A stretch of 54,937 nucleotides of DNA from Anaerolineae bacterium (GTDB taxonomy: Bacteria; Chloroflexota; Anaerolineae; Aggregatilineales; Phototrophicaceae). The stretch spans positions 1 to 54,937 of the forward strand of contig JAHDWN010000035.1 in NCBI GenBank assembly GCA_023382675.1, in the 5' to 3' direction. Shown here in pieces: positions 14,424-20,888 of this stretch (positions are counted from its first letter, which is position 1; each line of letters starts with the position of its first letter). The notes under the pieces were generated by a model. It was not told the origin of the DNA and did no database searches. It saw only the letters and a list, made by a program, of their open reading frames with translations. Made by a program: the position numbers and the translations under genes.

Positions 14424-14906
14424 GTGAGATATGGCTACAGCAATGTGATTTTTGCTCATCTCGGTGCAATATCTGTCAACGTAGGCGATAGAGTATCAGC
14501 AGGCGACGTGCTTGGGGCTGTAGGACAATAGACTGATGGATTTGGTTCACATCTTCACCTTGAGATGAGAAATTTCCCGGCAGGTGTATTCGATCATAAT
14601 GCTGTAATTGCATCAGGTATCGAACCCACAACAGGGATAATCACAGGGAGTGCAAACCAAGCACCGCTATTGTTTGTGAATACGTATCTGTTTTTCGATG
14701 CAACGTCTCAGCAACTCATGGACTCATGTGTTGAAAGAACTTATGATAGCCCACGATGGAGTGAAGATTGGCAGAGACCAAATACTGGTGGAGGGACAAT
14801 TCCATCAACTCAAAGGTCAGCCTGTTTTAACGGAACTTCAAGCGATGTAACTTACAGAGAGAACTCTGGGATATGTAGTCAAGGATTAGCAGGCGCACCG
14901 CAATAA
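14424..14906 (+). pseudogene. M23 (LytM-type) peptidase, C-terminal remnant with stop codon
   Basis: One frame reads VRYGYSNVIFAHLGAI, then VGDRVSAGDVLGAVGQ, then a TAG stop at 14529-14531, then TDGFGSHLHLEMR. This is the end of an M23 zinc endopeptidase domain with its HLH metal motif. Reading continues past the stop to 14906 with a Trp/Ser/Thr-rich tail. A TAA just upstream (near 14417) and the missing first zinc ligand (HxxxD) show that the N-terminal part is lost. The gene is therefore broken. Its base composition is clearly poorer in GC than the surrounding genes, which suggests transfer. M23 enzymes cut peptidoglycan cross-links. Confidence 0.75.
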
Positions 14907-14985
14907 AGAACAAGTACAAGTTACATATGTTGGTGATTGGATTGTTTCTTCAGCGATCCGGTCACCAACTGTCTTGGTTTCAAGG

Positions 14986-16005
14986 CTAACATGGTATCCA
15001 ATATGGTGTGTATTCGTTACGGTTGCCAGATGTGAGTCGCATGATTTCGTTGGTAGCTATATTGAGCGCAAACACTCCGACCCTATATTCAGCAACATTA
15101 TTATCAATTGCCTCAAATACAACAAGTGAACCATCAGGAGACCACTCTGGTCTTGCATAGTTTTCATGGAAAATGGTAACGCCTTCAGTCAGTAAGGTCT
15201 CCTCTGCTGTAAGCAGGTTTCGTGTATATATCTCATTTAATCCGTTGTTTGATACAGCATAAACAAAGTGAGTGGCAGCTGGATTCCACGAAACGCTCAC
15301 CACCATCGAATCGACAAATAGCGCTGATGTATCATCAAGCAAGTTTATATGATACAGAGACAAGTTATCTGAAAATCTGTTTGTCGAATATAAGATACCT
15401 TCGCTGTCGGGTGTCCAGCTTACGAAGTAATCAAATATGCCTTCTAGTGGCGGTGTAATTTCGCTGAAATCCCCTGTCTCAAGGGAGACAATCATCATGT
15501 TTTGTCTATCAACATCATTGACGCTGATTACTAAATTTCGCCCATCCAATGACCAATCGCCAAGAAAGTATGTCTGATTTCCTTGTGTTAGTTGTCGATG
15601 TTCCTCTCCTGTAGGCGTGACAATATATATGTTGTTCCGCGACTCAAAAGCAATCCAATCGCCAGTAGGAGACCAACGAATTCTCGGTTGTGTGGCTCGT
15701 CCAGATGTAATCTGAACAGGTTCGTCATCAATATCTGACAGCACTGCTAAATCGAATCCGCCATCTTCGTTGTAAGTAGCGATTGCTATTTGGCTACCAT
15801 CTGGCGACCACACCGGCGCTGAAGCTAAATTATCTAATGGTAATTCCACCTCAATGTGTTGGCTTAAGTCTAGTTGGTAGTATCGAAGTCCATCGTCAGT
15901 TGGTGCTGAATAAACCAGAACATTTCGGCAAGTTTCCAGGTTGATGCCCTGCTGTGGAAACCCGTTCAAAAATACGATCAGGAGACTGATCATAAGGATC
16001 TTCAT
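14986..16005 (-). CDS. Exported TolB-like beta-propeller protein
   Basis: This 339-residue protein begins with a signal peptide (MKILMISLLIVFLNGF) and then shows repeated PD40/TolB blades, marked by PVWSPDGSQIAIATY, RIRWSPTGDWIAFES, VSWTPDSEGILYSTN, VSWNPAATHFVYAVS and PEWSPDGSLVVFEAI. About six blades can be counted. There is no enzymatic motif; such propellers bind proteins or ligands in the periplasm or outside the cell. The gene is GC-poor like the adjacent M23 remnant and unlike genes on either side, so both may have come in together. The next gene upstream on this strand is far away, so it is probably transcribed alone. Confidence 0.85.
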   Translation of the reverse strand: MKILMISLLIVFLNGFPQQGINLETCRNVLVYSAPTDDGLRYYQLDLSQHIEVELPLDNLASAPVWSPDGSQIAIATYNEDGGFDLAVLSDIDDEPVQITSGRATQPRIRWSPTGDWIAFESRNNIYIVTPTGEEHRQLTQGNQTYFLGDWSLDGRNLVISVNDVDRQNMMIVSLETGDFSEITPPLEGIFDYFVSWTPDSEGILYSTNRFSDNLSLYHINLLDDTSALFVDSMVVSVSWNPAATHFVYAVSNNGLNEIYTRNLLTAEETLLTEGVTIFHENYARPEWSPDGSLVVFEAIDNNVAEYRVGVFALNIATNEIMRLTSGNRNEYTPYWIPC

Positions 16006-16446
16006 AACGATTTTTCTTCCAATCAGATCACCAATAGTCTATGGTGCGGTATTTTGAACGTCAAGAAACGACTCCTCAACGGCATTGCTACGCTATCAAA
16101 AGACGCACTCACAAAAGGGGCGTGTTACCTGTCCTCAATGGATAGGGACGGCGACATAAGTCGCAGGCCAGCCAATTTTCAGTGCAAATTTGTATACACG
16201 TAATGTGTATCGTAATATAGAGAGTGGCCTCTCAAACCGCTACAACGCTATATGCGCATGACCTGAGCAGCAGGAGAGGCATTCACTGCTGCTTTTGGTT
16301 TGTATCCATAACTCACGTTAACCTACGTCCGCGACGGATTGAGCAGGTAACACCCTCGCAGTGTTACAGGGCTGACACACCGGCGTAAAATACAAGTGAC
16401 AGGCAGCGCCTACGCTGAAATGGGATGCCTGCTCAGGAGTATCTTT
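16006..16446. other. Intergenic region with several small inverted repeats
   Basis: No gene is evident. The stretch is GC-poor at its left half. It holds ATACAC/GTGTAT (16194-16210), GCGAC/GTCGC near 16151-16164 and GTAACAC/GTGTTAC with a 7-nt loop (16347-16367). The last lies about 80 nt before the htrA start and could be an operator or part of a leader. Confidence 0.5.
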
Positions 16447-16779
16447 ATGCGCAGTCGGTTTATGCTCATGTTCGTTTTCGCAGCCGGGCTGCTGCTCGGC
16501 GCGGCGCTGATCACCTACACACTGGTGCTGCCGCATGGCACACCGTCGTTGGCGCAGGCAATCACGACGCCCGCGCCGACCCCGTCGCTGCCAGACGCGA
16601 CAGTCTTCGCCCAGGCAGATGCGCACGATCAGATCGTCGCCACGCTCTACCAGCGCGTCAGCCCGTCCGTGCTGCATATCACCAGCCGCGCGCAGTCGTT
16701 CAGCCCGTTCTACGGGGTCGTGCCGCGCGAAGGCACAGGCTCCGGCTTCGCCTACGATGACCAGGGAGGTCCGGATTAA
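16447..16779 (+). pseudogene. HtrA/DegP-type serine protease, N-terminal fragment
   Basis: ATG at 16447, with AGGAG 8 nt upstream, starts a 110-residue frame. It has an N-terminal membrane anchor (about residues 4-28), a Thr/Pro linker and then RVSPSVLHITSRAQSF and GTGSGFAYDDQG. That is the beginning of a trypsin-like HtrA domain, just before the expected IVTNxHV catalytic-His segment. The frame then diverges (GPD, stop at 16777-16779). The whole protease core and most of the PDZ domain are gone. A matching C-terminal HtrA tail appears 4 kb to the right at 20799-20888 in the same orientation, so an insertion with deletion destroyed this gene. Confidence 0.8.
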
Positions 16780-16834
16780 CCCGCCGGCACAACCGGTTCC
16801 TCCTCAATGTTTTTCCTGAAGTTGTTTCATACCC

Positions 16835-16885
16835 TTGACACATACCGCTGCACCATTACAATTCAAAATATGAAAATATTTGAAT
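16835..16885 (+). promoter_or_regulatory. Promoter and ArsR-type operator
   Basis: TTGACA (16835-16840) and TACAAT (16857-16862) are spaced by 16 nt, a near-consensus sigma-70 promoter. An inverted repeat of ATTCAAAATAT and ATATTTGAAT (16861-16885) overlaps the -10 region and start site, as expected for an ArsR-family repressor site. It sits 37 nt before the ArsR gene, which suggests autorepression. Confidence 0.75.
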
Positions 16886-16922
16886 ATTATAGTTGAATGC
16901 GATTATCTGAGAAGGATACCCC

Positions 16923-17261
16923 ATGAATCAAGCGGTTCATCAGTTCAAAGCCGAGTTTTTTAAGGTGCTCTCGCACCCGGCACGCCTGGCGATCCTTGAC
17001 CTTTTGCGGAGTGGGGAAAAGAGCGTCAATGAATTACAAGTTCTACTGGAAGCCGATCAATCAACCCTTTCGCAGCAGCTCGCCAAACTGCGTAACGGCA
17101 ATCTGGTGGACACCCGCAAGAAAGGGACAACCGTATATTATTCTGTGCGTGACCCCATGATTTTCCAGCTCATGGATGTTGCGCGAGAAATTTTCAGCCG
17201 TCAACTTATCAGCCATCAGGAACTGCTTGAGGAATTGAGCGAGGAGGTTGAACTGCCTTAA
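16923..17261 (+). CDS. ArsR/SmtB-family winged-helix repressor without cysteines
   Basis: This 112-residue protein is a winged-helix ArsR-type regulator. FFKVLSHPARLAILDLL starts the domain, and the recognition helix is QSTLSQQLAKLRNGNLVDTR, followed by the wing KKGTTVYYSV. Unlike metal- or thiol-sensing members it contains no cysteine, so arsenic or zinc thiolate sensing at the usual helix-3 site is unlikely. AGGA precedes the ATG. A promoter and palindromic operator stand directly upstream, and the SulP transporter gene follows after a riboswitch, so it probably represses its own transcript and the transporter. Composition is GC-poorer than the genome around it. Confidence 0.88.
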   Translation: MNQAVHQFKAEFFKVLSHPARLAILDLLRSGEKSVNELQVLLEADQSTLSQQLAKLRNGNLVDTRKKGTTVYYSVRDPMIFQLMDVAREIFSRQLISHQELLEELSEEVELP

Positions 17262-17317
17262 ACATCTCCCCGGCGCGTAAGCTGGGTAAGAACGAGATGC
17301 AGGATGCAAATGAATCT

Positions 17318-17432
17318 AGGCCGAGGCTCTGTCATGGGAGCGCGGGGGAACCAATTGTGGGGTGAAGGTTGTGTCAACAACCAGGGTGTCCTTTCAACCC
17401 GAACCCGTCAGCTCACCTCGTAGGCCAGCGTG
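17318..17432 (+). promoter_or_regulatory. ydaO/yuaA-type c-di-AMP riboswitch
   Basis: The conserved core of the ydaO RNA is present in order: CGGGGGAACC (17342-17352), TGGGGTGAA (17358-17366), AGGGTGTCCTTTC, then ACCCGAACCCGTCAGCT and CACCTCGTAGGC ending about 17425. These match, from memory, the two ligand-binding half-sites of the c-di-AMP aptamer. It is followed at once by an intrinsic terminator, which fits a terminate-on-ligand switch. The controlled gene is the SulP transporter starting at 17546. The exact ends of the outer P1 stem are approximate. Confidence 0.88.
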
Positions 17433-17474
17433 AAAGGCTCTCTCCTCTTCGAGGAACGCGAGCCTTTTTTTGTC
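17433..17474 (+). terminator. Intrinsic terminator, riboswitch expression platform
   Basis: AAAGGCTC pairs with GAGCCTTT around an inner CCTC/GAGG hairpin (loop TTC), followed by a run of T. It lies between the c-di-AMP aptamer and the SulP gene. A second hairpin, TACACCA with TTGGTGTA, follows near 17488-17507. Confidence 0.85.
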
Positions 17475-17545
17475 CGATGAAGTCAGTACACCAGTATGTT
17501 GGTGTATAAGTTGGAACTGCCGCTGATTGGAGGATTGACCTGACT

Positions 17546-19270
17546 ATGCAAGTTCTTCGCTACCTGCCCAATCTTTTTGAGATTTGGCGCGATGAGTTTC
17601 GAGGTTATAACACCCAGGTTTTCCGGCGTGACCTGCTGGCAGGCGTTACAGTCGCCGCCGTAGCGCTACCGCTGGCACTGGCATTCGGCGTGGCATCTGG
17701 CGCAACCGCTGCTGCCGGTCTGGTAACGGCTATCCTGGCTGGTTTCATCATCGGCGGACTTGGTGGGGCAGGCTATCAGATTTCTGGCCCAACCGGTGCT
17801 ATGTCGGCGGTGCTCATTGTGCTGGCAAGCCGCTATGGCGTCGAAGGGGTTTGGATCGCCGGGGTTATGGCAGGCGCGCTTATTCTTCTGCTGGGGGTCT
17901 TTAACCTGGGGCAGATTGTCAACTTTATCCCCTCTGCCGTAATAGCCGGGTTCACCAGTGGAATCGCCGTCATCATCTTTATTGGACAGATCGACAACTT
18001 GTTGGGTGTAACAACTGAAGCGGCTGAAAACGCGCTGGTGAAACTGACGCATTATTTCCGCTTCGACTATGCCCCCAACCTGGCTGCCGTGGGCTTGAGT
18101 GCGCTGGTTATTCTCATTATGATTTTCTGGCCCAAACGATTCAATGCCCGTTTCCCCGGTTCACTGTTGGGACTCATTGTGGCGACAGCGGTTGCCATAC
18201 TGCTAAAGTTGGATGTGCCTGTCATCGGCAGCATTCCACAAACGATCTTGCTGGATCAACGCCTGCTGCCTACAAACATCCCCTGGGAACATGTGGGAGA
18301 GTTGATTATGCCAGCATTATCCATCGCGGCGCTGGGATCAATCGAAAGCCTGCTGTGTGGCGCAGTGGCCGGTCGGATGACCGGGGTCAAGTTATCTTCC
18401 AATCAGGAATTAATTGCCCAGGGTCTGGGCAACATCGTTATCCCCTTTTTCGGTGGAGTTCCAGCTACAGCGGCTATCGCTCGGACGAGTGTAGCCATCA
18501 AAAGTGGCGGTGCCACACGGATCATGAGCATCGTACATTCCATCACACTGCTGCTGGCTGCTCTGGTACTTGCCCCTGTTATCTCGCAGGTACCGCTGGC
18601 AGCCCTGGCGGGTGTCTTGGCTGTTACAGCCTGGCGGATGAACGAGTGGGGTGAAATCCGCGAAATCTTCCACCGCCGTTTCAAAAGTGCGATGTTCGCT
18701 TTCGTTAGCACCTTGATTGCGACAGTAGCGCTCGATCTCACCCAGGCCATTATTCTGGGGGTGGGACTTTCCGCGATGATCTTCGTGTTCCAAAGCAGCC
18801 AAGCCAAGGTGACATTTGCCCCGGTTTCCGTTGAGAAGATGCGCGCCGATGGGTACGAGATGCAGTATGACGCAGACCGTATCCTTGTGGTGTACATTAC
18901 AGGACCGCTGTTCTTTGGCACAGTCAACACCTTCAACACAGTGTTGGAGAATCTCAACGGGAATCAGGACATTATCTTGAGCTTACGCACTGTCCCATTG
19001 CTGGATACTACAGGTATCAGTGCAATTGAGAATCTCCTTCGTCAGTTTGAAAGTGAAGGCAGGCGGGTCTATCTCAGCGGGCTTACTGATCCTGTGCGTG
19101 CCTACCTTGAACGATCTGGTGTCATTCACCATTTAGGAGAAAATCGCGTCTTCTGGAGTGCTTACGAGGCGATTATGGCTGCTGACCATTATCGCGCGAA
19201 CATCAAGCGGCAGACTCAAGAATATGAGGAAGCAAAAATGGCTCACCAAGTCAATGGCGCTTCGACATAA
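17546..19270 (+). CDS. SulP (SLC26) family anion transporter with STAS domain
   Basis: The 574-residue protein has the SulP membrane domain (about residues 25-415, 10-14 helices), beginning FRRDLLAGVTVAAVALPLALAFG. It has the conserved GYQISGPTGAMSAV segment near residue 75. A cytoplasmic STAS domain follows (about 440-550) with LLDTTGISAIENLL. SulP proteins carry sulfate, bicarbonate, chloride or other anions; the substrate is not readable here. GGAGG is about 12 nt before the ATG. The gene lies under a c-di-AMP riboswitch and downstream of an ArsR regulator, so control is likely both by repressor and by second messenger. A universal stress protein gene follows. GC content is lower than in flanking genes. 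Confidence 0.92.
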   Translation: MQVLRYLPNLFEIWRDEFRGYNTQVFRRDLLAGVTVAAVALPLALAFGVASGATAAAGLVTAILAGFIIGGLGGAGYQISGPTGAMSAVLIVLASRYGVEGVWIAGVMAGALILLLGVFNLGQIVNFIPSAVIAGFTSGIAVIIFIGQIDNLLGVTTEAAENALVKLTHYFRFDYAPNLAAVGLSALVILIMIFWPKRFNARFPGSLLGLIVATAVAILLKLDVPVIGSIPQTILLDQRLLPTNIPWEHVGELIMPALSIAALGSIESLLCGAVAGRMTGVKLSSNQELIAQGLGNIVIPFFGGVPATAAIARTSVAIKSGGATRIMSIVHSITLLLAALVLAPVISQVPLAALAGVLAVTAWRMNEWGEIREIFHRRFKSAMFAFVSTLIATVALDLTQAIILGVGLSAMIFVFQSSQAKVTFAPVSVEKMRADGYEMQYDADRILVVYITGPLFFGTVNTFNTVLENLNGNQDIILSLRTVPLLDTTGISAIENLLRQFESEGRRVYLSGLTDPVRAYLERSGVIHHLGENRVFWSAYEAIMAADHYRANIKRQTQEYEEAKMAHQVNGAST

Positions 19271-19351
19271 AGTAAGTTTGGCGTTCGGGGTTCTGTCAGT
19301 TCCTCCGCTGCCGATGGAACCCCCTCCATGTCTGTTGAAAGGAGACGAACG

Positions 19352-19813
19352 ATGAGCATCATCCTGGTTCAGATGGCAGACGACCAGTGGACCCAGCGGG
19401 CAATGCATCTAGCATGCACAATGGCACAACAGAACAAGGCACGGATTGTGCTGTTGTGGCTAGTATCAGTCCCCAATCCGGGGTGGTTAGGTGCAGGGCT
19501 GAGCGAGTTTATTCCAACTAAACGCGACACAGAGCGCCAAGCAGTCTATACGACGATTGCCCGTGATTATGGGGTCGAATGTATGGTTCAACGGATGGAT
19601 TACTATACCCTGTATGGAGCGCTCGTCAGTGCAGTTGATCTCTTGGATGCACAGGTGGTTTTCACTAAACTCCCGAGAGGTATTTTCCCACTTTGGGACA
19701 AATTCCGGTTATGGGATTTAAGACGTCAATTGTCTGCCCGCGATTGTGAACTCCACACCCTAAACGAACCACCTGAAGTAGCCGCTTCATTGCCGTCAAT
19801 AAACAGTGTCTGA
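19352..19813 (+). CDS. Universal stress protein-like (UspA-type) protein
   Basis: The 153-residue protein starts MSIILVQMADDQWTQRAMHL with the beta-strand/helix pattern of the USP fold. It continues with a second strand (RIVLLWLVSVP) and an alternating alpha/beta order to the end. The Gly-rich ATP-binding loop of classical UspA (GxxGxxxxG) is not seen, so nucleotide binding is doubtful. I chose ATG at 19352 because AGGAG lies 7 nt before it; an in-frame ATG at 19328 is less likely. It follows the SulP gene by 81 nt on the same strand. USP-like partners next to SulP or other ion transporters often act as cytoplasmic regulators; that role is inferred. Confidence 0.7.
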   Translation: MSIILVQMADDQWTQRAMHLACTMAQQNKARIVLLWLVSVPNPGWLGAGLSEFIPTKRDTERQAVYTTIARDYGVECMVQRMDYYTLYGALVSAVDLLDAQVVFTKLPRGIFPLWDKFRLWDLRRQLSARDCELHTLNEPPEVAASLPSINSV

Positions 19814-19911
19814 GAAGAATAGGACAATAGATGTCATGAATTTCCAAAACGCAAACAAGAGATTTATTTCATAAAGTTACATTGATAGATTTCCTGTTCG
19901 AGGTAACGGGC

Positions 19912-20142
19912 ATGATGTTTCCCAATTCCAGTTTTTACCGAGCGATCACCGACGAACAGGTGTGTAAGGCGACAGGCAAAACATGGTCGGAATGGGCGGT
20001 GCTCTTAGATGCATGGGGCGCGAGGCAGAAACGATTGGTCTCAATTACGGAGCATCTCATAGAACATTACCGCCTTAGCCAAATCTGGGCGCAAGTCATA
20101 GCCGTTGCCTATCATTGGGAACGAGCGACGGATACACTCTAG
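19912..20142 (+). CDS. DUF4287-like small protein
   Basis: The 76-residue product contains DEQVCKATGKTWSEWAVLLD and ends with WAQVIAVAYHWERA. This matches my recollection of DUF4287 (xxAxGKTxxEWxxLLDxxGA, then xWWAQxVTVxYE). Function in this family is not known. ATG at 19912 follows GAGG at about 8 nt; a TTG at 19882 would extend it by ten residues. It lies in the GC-poorer insert, after the stress protein gene. Confidence 0.7.
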   Translation: MMFPNSSFYRAITDEQVCKATGKTWSEWAVLLDAWGARQKRLVSITEHLIEHYRLSQIWAQVIAVAYHWERATDTL

Positions 20143-20176
20143 GCTTGGATGGTCAAAGCACACAAATTGAGCTTCT

Positions 20177-20488
20177 ATGTCACAGTCGCTACATAACGTT
20201 GGACATGAAGAGCAGTTCAGGAGACTGGCTCATGCACTTGCCTATTCCGCCTCGCCACGCTTGACGGCCATTTTGGTGCGTATGCGTGCAGTTATTCCCA
20301 CCCTGAATGCTACAGATGGCACACGGCTCAATATTCAATCCGAGCGCATCCATGATGCTGACCTGCGCAGCTCGATTTACACGGCGCTTTGCGGAAACAG
20401 GAGGTTGCTTGCCGAATTAGACGATGAGGCAATCTTTCGCGCCGCGTGCCAAGCATACCTGGATAATATTAGCTTCCCAGGGGTATGA
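20177..20488 (+). CDS. Hypothetical protein, 103 residues
   Basis: The product begins MSQSLHNVGHEEQFRRLAHA and is mostly helical, with mixed charge and a single Cys pair (residues 72 and 90 region). No motif is recognised. GAG lies near the ATG but the ribosome site is weak. It follows the DUF4287-like gene by 34 nt and may be co-transcribed with it. It could also be a remnant of a larger gene, since the region to its right is scarred. Confidence 0.45.
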   Translation: MSQSLHNVGHEEQFRRLAHALAYSASPRLTAILVRMRAVIPTLNATDGTRLNIQSERIHDADLRSSIYTALCGNRRLLAELDDEAIFRAACQAYLDNISFPGV

Positions 20489-20639
20489 AAACGATTATGC
20501 TTTATATGTGACGTTGGCAAACCGAACTATCCTTCACGGCTCTTTTGGGGTCAATCAAGCGCGGAGCTTATCGCCCTCTGTGCCAGAATGAATGAAACAA
20601 CTTCGGTCTCAAGTTTAGTGTAGACTCGAGGGCGAAGAA

Positions 20640-20798
20640 GGATGGAAGCAGATAGCATACGAGAATGGCACAGGCAGACCGGTTGAGGTGCAACCGCGGG
20701 CGGCGCGCCGGGCCTTCAGCGCGGACTACGAGCGGCGGATTCTAGCAGAAACGGACGCCTGTACACGCGGACAGGTGGGGGTGCTGCTGCGACGAGAG
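20640..20798 (+). mobile_element. Transposase N-terminal remnant
   Basis: An open frame without a clear start reads WKQIAYENGTGRPVEV, then RRAFSADYERRILAETDAC, then GQVGVLLRRE. This resembles the N-terminal helix-turn-helix of IS3-type transposases (RRxFSAEYKxRILxExDAC, GxLLRREG). It is cut off at about 20798, where the sequence joins in frame to the HtrA C-terminal tail. The rest of the element is missing and no terminal inverted repeats were recognised. It marks the right border of the 4-kb insert. The left limit 20640 is approximate. Confidence 0.6.
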
Positions 20799-20888
20799 GT
20801 GCGGCCACGCGCTGGTGACACGGTCACGCTCACGATCCTGCGCGATAATACGCCGGTGGACGTGCAGGTGATGTTGGACTCCGAGTAG
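20799..20888 (+). pseudogene. HtrA-type protease, C-terminal tail fragment
   Basis: The 29 residues VRPRAGDTVTLTILRDNT followed by PVDVQVMLDSE and a stop match the last two beta-strands of an HtrA PDZ domain. They are fused in frame to the transposase remnant. With the N-terminal fragment at 16447-16779, they show that one htrA gene once spanned this site. Confidence 0.65.

Follow-up and report, generated by a model that had tools for sequence, protein, structure and literature searches.

Cyclic di-AMP (c-di-AMP) is known chiefly for regulating cell-wall genes and the uptake of potassium and osmolytes, and the accumulation of K+ requires an anion. The targets named in the accessible text of five papers concern the transport of K+ and amino acids, osmotic functions and the cell wall (PMC7266159, PMC9960051, PMC9337991, PMC5575661, PMC6488665). 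As described in the available part of PMC9960051, members of the ydaO riboswitch class are OFF switches: c-di-AMP promotes the terminator in Bacillus subtilis, and the Corynebacterium glutamicum member is an OFF switch probably acting on translation. Control of termination is also described, in the accessible portion of PMC9337991, for a Na+/c-di-AMP tandem. This study analysed a 54,937-nucleotide stretch of an Anaerolineae genome (contig JAHDWN010000035.1 of assembly GCA_023382675.1, forward strand; hereafter the window), in which a leader of this class is located directly upstream of a gene encoding an anion transporter of the SulP family. We estimate a probability of about 0.8 that sulP is controlled by this leader, at 17309-17471, acting as a c-di-AMP riboswitch. 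No description of a c-di-AMP riboswitch before SulP was found in the accessible part of the searchable literature; the primary surveys (Block 2010, Nelson 2013) may tabulate SulP, the more so as its frequency in Clostridia would make it a likely entry.

The riboswitch leader and the SulP gene

The features that carry this reading are as follows.

17309-17441, + strand: c-di-AMP riboswitch aptamer (ydaO/yuaA, RF00379), 94.6 bits against a cut-off of 38, E 4.1e-21
17390-17395, + strand: putative 5' strand of a loop-tail pseudoknot (CCUUUC), pairing with 17432-17437
17432-17437, + strand: putative partner strand of that pseudoknot on the 3' side (GAAAGG), shared in part with the terminator's 5' arm
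17432-17471, + strand: intrinsic-terminator-like hairpin and T run (candidate expression platform), from the sequence, with a fold of -17.5 kcal/mol
17546-19270, + strand: SulP/SLC26-type anion transporter with a C-terminal STAS domain (PF00916, PF01740)

By its covariance score the window leader is a riboswitch of the c-di-AMP class. The match spans positions 1-134 of the Rfam covariance model, which is its full length, and RF00379 was the only family to reach the gathering threshold in an Rfam scan of the window. Scoring of all 79 candidates in the 6.4 Mb, 96% complete host genome revealed the window copy as the sole RF00379 match. The same genome contains one match to the diadenylate cyclase domain (DAC, PF02457; 142.4 bits, cut-off 27), located in a reading frame of 290 amino acids with membrane-type segments at its start, which we take to be CdaA-like. 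The genome is a clean case, with one cyclase domain, one riboswitch and one target found.

The terminator-like hairpin (GAAAGGCUC...GAGCCUUUU, 17432-17468) leads into seven T at 17465-17471. A consensus terminator scan missed it (0 found, 1.0 expected in shuffles); hairpins at the equivalent place were detected by folding in the leaders of G439, G437, G449, G341, G585 and G330. The sulP gene, preceded by the Shine-Dalgarno-like sequence TTGGAGGA at 17528-17535, begins with an ATG at 17546 and extends, stop included, to 19270. Its product of 574 amino acids contains the Sulfate_transp (PF00916; 245 bits, E 1.5e-72) and STAS (PF01740; 59.2 bits, E 3.9e-16) domains. An earlier note, made from this DNA alone, had proposed a c-di-AMP riboswitch followed by a terminator and a SulP gene, and had suggested scoring the leader with RF00379. 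The aptamer, scoring far over the gathering value, and the transporter are both borne out, a terminator-like hairpin lies where a terminator was placed, and the start given in the note (17318) falls 9 bases inside the Rfam match.

Recurrence and history of the pairing

In the window's order, Aggregatilineales, 154 genomes were searched for SulP protein and for RF00379, the latter with stricter Infernal filters and at most 20 candidates scored per genome, under which weak or further copies may escape. SulP homologues at E <= 1e-40 were found in 38 genomes and RF00379 in seven, six of them over the cut-off; all seven matches lie at a SulP locus, and that of the window scores highest. In four genomes (G000, which is the window's, G439, G437 and G449) the aptamer scores 86-95 bits and is located about 100 bases upstream of SulP. 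The G484 aptamer reaches 51 bits and that of G431 32 bits, below the cut-off. The seventh, in G432, scores 92 bits, with SulP 30.6 kb away on the same contig. An inserted element separates the two and splits the terminator, the left part of which stays behind the aptamer and the right part in front of SulP. Three metagenome-assembled genomes (MAGs; L033-L035), being the three of 15 SulP-similar loci that carry the aptamer, have scores equal to those of G449, G439 and G437 and, being regarded as the same assemblies, were not recounted.

The element in G432 (G432:C31, approximately 29840-60320, L192/L193) occupies 30 kb inside the riboswitch terminator. It encodes a large resolvase-domain protein, which is probably a serine recombinase, an actin-like protein, Cas10/Csm1, an NE0113-type CRISPR protein and a CHAT protein, together with a XamI-type restriction enzyme, a methylase and neighbours resembling Csm genes; it is likely a defence island integrated into the riboswitch. 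An antiterminator of the P2 3' strand and the terminator 5' arm, considered by eye, looks broken in G432 and is not claimed. Inspection by eye of the G431 and G422 leaders indicated that the terminator, the pseudoknot and the aptamer's 3' half are kept and much of the 5' half is lost, so that these are either decaying riboswitches or new variants; the leader of MAG L038 is the same as that of G422.

Across Chloroflexota, a sample of 400 genomes (stricter filters, no more than 8 candidates scored in each, so that weak or further copies may again escape) gave RF00379 in 63. SulP lies downstream at 5 of 139 aptamer places, the window included and one of the 139 being below the cut-off. Two places (L102, L146) had no usable open reading frame (ORF), and among the 137 first downstream ORFs SulP (5) was the commonest transporter family shown, alongside the enzyme trehalose-6-phosphate synthase (10), MFS (4) and CdAMP_rec (4). 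The SulP proteins concerned are 54-58% (G341, G330) or 30-32% (G226, G356) identical to that of the window. In the class of G341 the aptamer was found in 3 of the 20 best SulP loci, and in the class of G226, where 16 loci of 14 genomes were followed, in five genomes. A separate observation is that CdAMP_rec, a c-di-AMP receptor family, recurs beside RF00379 (4 of 137), which suggests feedback on the signalling system.

Bacillota is the phylum to which the Clostridia genome G806 belongs. Here RF00379 was found in 130 of 199 genomes (stricter filters, no more than 15 candidates scored in each, with the same chance of missed copies); five Clostridia genomes with a SulP similar to the window's gave no match. 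Among the matches listed, 90 places were read (the 30 best and, in list order, the next 60), of which three precede SulP (G933, G898, G879). Two places (L283, L328) had no usable ORF; the remaining 88 include lysine 2,3-aminomutase (29), TrkH (4), OpuAC (3) and KdpA (2), which are expected targets and serve as a check of the method. Of 20 Bacillota SulP upstream regions, 12 carry RF00379 at 84-96 bits, on the correct strand and just before SulP, a proportion that is no unbiased rate, the regions having been chosen after the three aptamer-adjoining SulPs were known. One of the 20, L371, stops at a contig edge.

The listing of SulP genes with such leaders in other genomes, proposed in the earlier note, thus comprises 28 loci including the window, each with SulP directly behind an aptamer that scores over the cut-off, in two phyla, Chloroflexota and Bacillota. 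They are grouped as follows; the assemblies of G484, G738, G879 and G898 have SulP split into pieces.

A1: window, G439, G437, G449, G484
A2: G341, G585, G330
B: G226, G784, G746, G356, G738
C: G933, G898
D1: G1045, G1064, G982, G1134, G1181, G963, G1103, G835, G1057, G1207, G879
D2: G922, G1011

A SulP tree of 80 rows was built, 25 of them labelled aptamer-bearing, including G432 (interrupted), G431 (sub-threshold) and G422 (decayed). The aptamer label needs at least seven changes on it, five of which are forced by well-supported branches, the rows having been picked around aptamer-bearing SulPs and gains being indistinguishable from losses. Support for the SulP groups is 94 for A1 and 100 for each of A2, B (three rows), D1 and D2, C being a single row. 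The SulP trees leave out L211, L212 and L217, from which 8 residues each were extracted, and a D1 relative, G835:C22, whose upstream region (L366) has no match, stands outside the 80-row tree. On the aptamer tree (n=236), A1 and A2 form one group of exactly 8 (SH-aLRT 98), and the B rows (94) and three Bacillota rows (95) are placed apart from it, although unlabelled aptamers may sit inside both. The aptamer trees leave out L191 (a sub-threshold partial), G484, G431, G422 and most D1 and D2 aptamers. Since the aptamers of A1 and A2 group together but their SulPs are separate, either an old pairing has often been lost or the leader has moved.

The leaders differ in their expression platforms. 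Terminator-like hairpins were recognised by eye in D1 and D2 and by folding in A1 and A2. In the B and C leaders, also viewed by eye, the sequence shown contains no terminator and the start codon is close by, an arrangement suggestive of control at translation. An alignment of 28 SulP-linked aptamers (with G432 and without G484, and so different from the 28 loci counted above) contains 30 invariant columns. In it the loop preceding CCCGAACCC pairs with the tail beyond P1, and the loop:tail letters are CCUUUC:GAAAGG in A1+A2, CUUCC:GGAAG in B, CUCUC:GAGAG in C, CUUGG:CCAAG in D1 and CUUUU:AAAAG in D2. With A1+A2 taken as one group, at least five Watson-Crick pairs are formed with the aptamer's own tail in 28 of 28 cases and with another group's tail in 36 of 566. 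The predicted pseudoknot is kept while its letters change between groups.

The transporter, ArsR and the surrounding segment

The window SulP was compared with three curated models and reached the cut-off of none: it scored 297.6 bits with sulfate permease TIGR00815 (cut-off 380.45), 245.3 bits with the bicarbonate transporter BicA (NF050096; cut-off 880) and, the highest of the three, 378.5 bits with the C4-dicarboxylate transporter DauA (NF008660; cut-off 614). Sulfate, bicarbonate or chloride is therefore a guess, and C4-dicarboxylate is equally open. The best-scoring solved structures were 5da0 and 6ki1, which we take to be SLC26Dg and BicA, respectively. A glutamate of the window SulP aligns with a glutamate in 5da0 and an aspartate in 6ki1, at an acidic position whose assignment to TM8, like its role, is presumed here. 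The protein resembles DauA, BicA and SLC26Dg in being a SulP family member with STAS and in the motif GVPATAAIARTSVAIKSGG, and shares the glutamate with 5da0; it differs from DauA and BicA in falling below both curated cut-offs, and from 6ki1 in having glutamate instead of aspartate. The putative TM8 residue is glutamate in 17 of 21 aligned SulPs and serine in four Bacillota proteins of group D1 (L384, L385, L388, L390), whose coupling or substrate may differ. An ORF at 19328-19813, considered as a conserved downstream operon partner, was rejected, as neither Pfam nor NCBIfam gave a match and the searched loci contained no relative.

Upstream of the leader, the following further features were recorded, together with one between the terminator and sulP.

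16835-16862, + strand: promoter-like site (TTGACA, 16 nt, TACAAT) upstream of arsR, consensus scan, 11/12 matches
16923-17261, + strand: ArsR/SmtB-family regulator of 112 amino acids (PF01022, E 4.4e-11; NF033788, 89.7 bits, cut-off 55)
17488-17506, + strand: 7-base perfect inverted repeat TACACCA-N5-TGGTGTA between the terminator and sulP, a possible operator

The promoter-like site at 16835-16862 is probably, judging by its sequence, the start of a single arsR-riboswitch-sulP transcript. The consensus scan gave a second, weaker site on the + strand at 16862-16890 and none between arsR and sulP. The inverted repeat appeared by eye not to be conserved in relatives. The ArsR protein has no cysteine among its 112 residues and scored 61.7 bits, under the cut-off of 155, with the model of the thiol-sensing regulator BigR (NF040642).

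Relatives of the window ArsR adjoin SulP in many of the searched loci. The co-directional order arsR-aptamer-sulP was found in the window, G484, G432 (interrupted) and G431 (as a remnant); G341 and G585, members of another class, also have it. G539 has arsR and sulP co-directional without an aptamer. Of the loci in the class of G341 that lack the aptamer, six (L207, L209, L211, L212, L217, L218) have arsR upstream of sulP in divergent orientation, and two (L210, L223) have it downstream on the strand of sulP. No ArsR relatives were found in the stretches examined around the aptamer-bearing SulPs of G437, G439, G449 and G330. As arsR and the aptamer each occur with sulP without the other, the association of each regulator with SulP is independent of the other.

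The genes arsR and sulP, with the aptamer, are located in a stretch (about 16780-20640) whose G+C content is about 44-56%. To its right the content is 64-72%; to its left, the piece 16500-16749 has 68%, and the region further left (14500-16250) 41-45%. Two fragments, 16396-16779 and 20688-20888, flank this lower-G+C segment. The left one ends in what we take, presumptively, for the beginning of a protease domain of HtrA type; its match to 3qo6 is weak (E 0.22) and not the top one, and no relevant Pfam match was obtained. The right fragment ends in a PDZ-like sequence (PDZ_2, E 0.019, below the cut-off). On these weak matches, the segment may have replaced the middle of an HtrA-type protease gene, and such an insertion would fit the patchy distribution of the pairing.

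Mechanism, alternatives and known systems

The ligand and the direction of the switch are taken from the riboswitch family. Since known members are OFF switches, the window leader is most likely one as well, high c-di-AMP lowering SulP expression. Transcription would start upstream of arsR, cross that gene and reach the aptamer. At high c-di-AMP the aptamer would fold, the hairpin at 17432-17471 would form and RNA polymerase would halt before sulP; at low c-di-AMP, sulP would be transcribed. ArsR would probably repress the arsR-sulP transcript on some signal. As a guess, SulP may be part of an osmotic programme, in which anions are taken up when solute is needed and uptake is cut when c-di-AMP signals that the supply suffices.

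An arrangement in which the aptamer mainly attenuates the arsR transcript and hardly affects sulP, the latter being expressed from a separate promoter located after the terminator and before 17546, is unlikely. The aptamer begins just 47 bases past the arsR stop, on an identical strand, and the inverted repeat lies in a gap suitable for an operator or a start; however, the scan detected no promoter-like site at 17441-17600, in G437, G439 and G449 the aptamer precedes sulP with no arsR in the upstream stretch examined, and in groups B and C it is close to the SulP start. Somewhat less probable again is a leader that keeps the aptamer sequence but senses another signal or has lost switching, as in the decayed leaders of relatives. 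Decay does occur in the clade, as G431 and G422 demonstrate, but the window copy matches the full model with the best score among the order's seven and has an intact predicted pseudoknot. That the neighbourhood of aptamer and SulP is an accident of the inserted segment, without regulatory meaning, is very improbable: although arsR and sulP do stand between G+C-rich fragments that on weak matches may be the ends of one protease gene, the same order recurs at 28 loci in two phyla, and with at most three SulP matches per genome chance adjacency should be rare, which is an estimate and not a computed test.

Several results weigh against control of sulP by a c-di-AMP riboswitch in the window, or against its wider extension. 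In the computed fold the terminator forms whether or not the aptamer is imposed, so a ligand-dependent choice is not proven by sequence alone. Folded freely, the leader does no better than its shuffles (z -0.34), which speaks against stability as evidence; for these two reasons the thermodynamic argument for a switch was dropped, and the evidence consists of the covariance score and the comparative data. The pseudoknot comparison is less sharp when G-U pairs are allowed, with means of 6.6 pairs for own and 4.7 for between-group tails, half of the latter reaching five. The aptamers of G431 (L053/L083) and G422 (no match; L054) have decayed with the terminator kept, which indicates that c-di-AMP control is dispensable for some relatives. 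The leader is absent from 17 of the 20 best SulP loci in the class of G341 (L208 having little upstream sequence). Of 30 SulP loci in another Bacillota set, the scan covered 20; 19 were without an aptamer and the one with it was already known, L335 in this set being a fragment with the gene start and aptamer on another contig. Finally, none of the three curated models fixes the substrate of the window SulP.

Riboswitch control of sulP nevertheless remains the preferred reading. Two further proposals of the earlier note can be retained in part. It had placed ArsR as a second layer of control: arsR is indeed upstream on the + strand, and its co-directional arrangement with aptamer and sulP in two Chloroflexota classes makes a second layer plausible. 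It had also extended c-di-AMP control to sulfate, bicarbonate or chloride; SulP as a recurrent target stands, and the naming of the anion does not, the models being below their cut-offs.

The RNA itself belongs to a known class. Less expected are the recurrence of SulP as its target and an order in which the detected RF00379 matches lie at SulP. The recurrence in two phyla points to c-di-AMP control of the counter-anion of K+, and the pairing offers a handle on unassigned SulP proteins. More tentatively, and at somewhat less than even odds, riboswitches may have been recruited repeatedly to SulP, c-di-AMP steering the anion side (chloride, bicarbonate, dicarboxylate) as well as K+, and the regulon of the order may have shrunk to sulP as the only output of the class there.

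A possible link between c-di-AMP and anion transport is likewise found in the cyanobacterial carbon-concentrating mechanism with SbtB, as described in the accessible text of PMC10117731, in the main text of which the phrase c-di-AMP riboswitch does not occur. That system differs in that a protein, SbtB, acts on another transporter, SbtA (PMC10117731, accessible text). The window leader is most similar in build to the ydaO/yuaA leaders of B. subtilis kimA (ydaO) and Bacillus thuringiensis kdpFABC, with which it shares a full-length aptamer, a predicted pseudoknot, a terminator-like hairpin and a transporter gene next in line. Unlike these, its target belongs to the SulP anion family and is not a K+ transporter, and it is preceded by arsR on the same strand.

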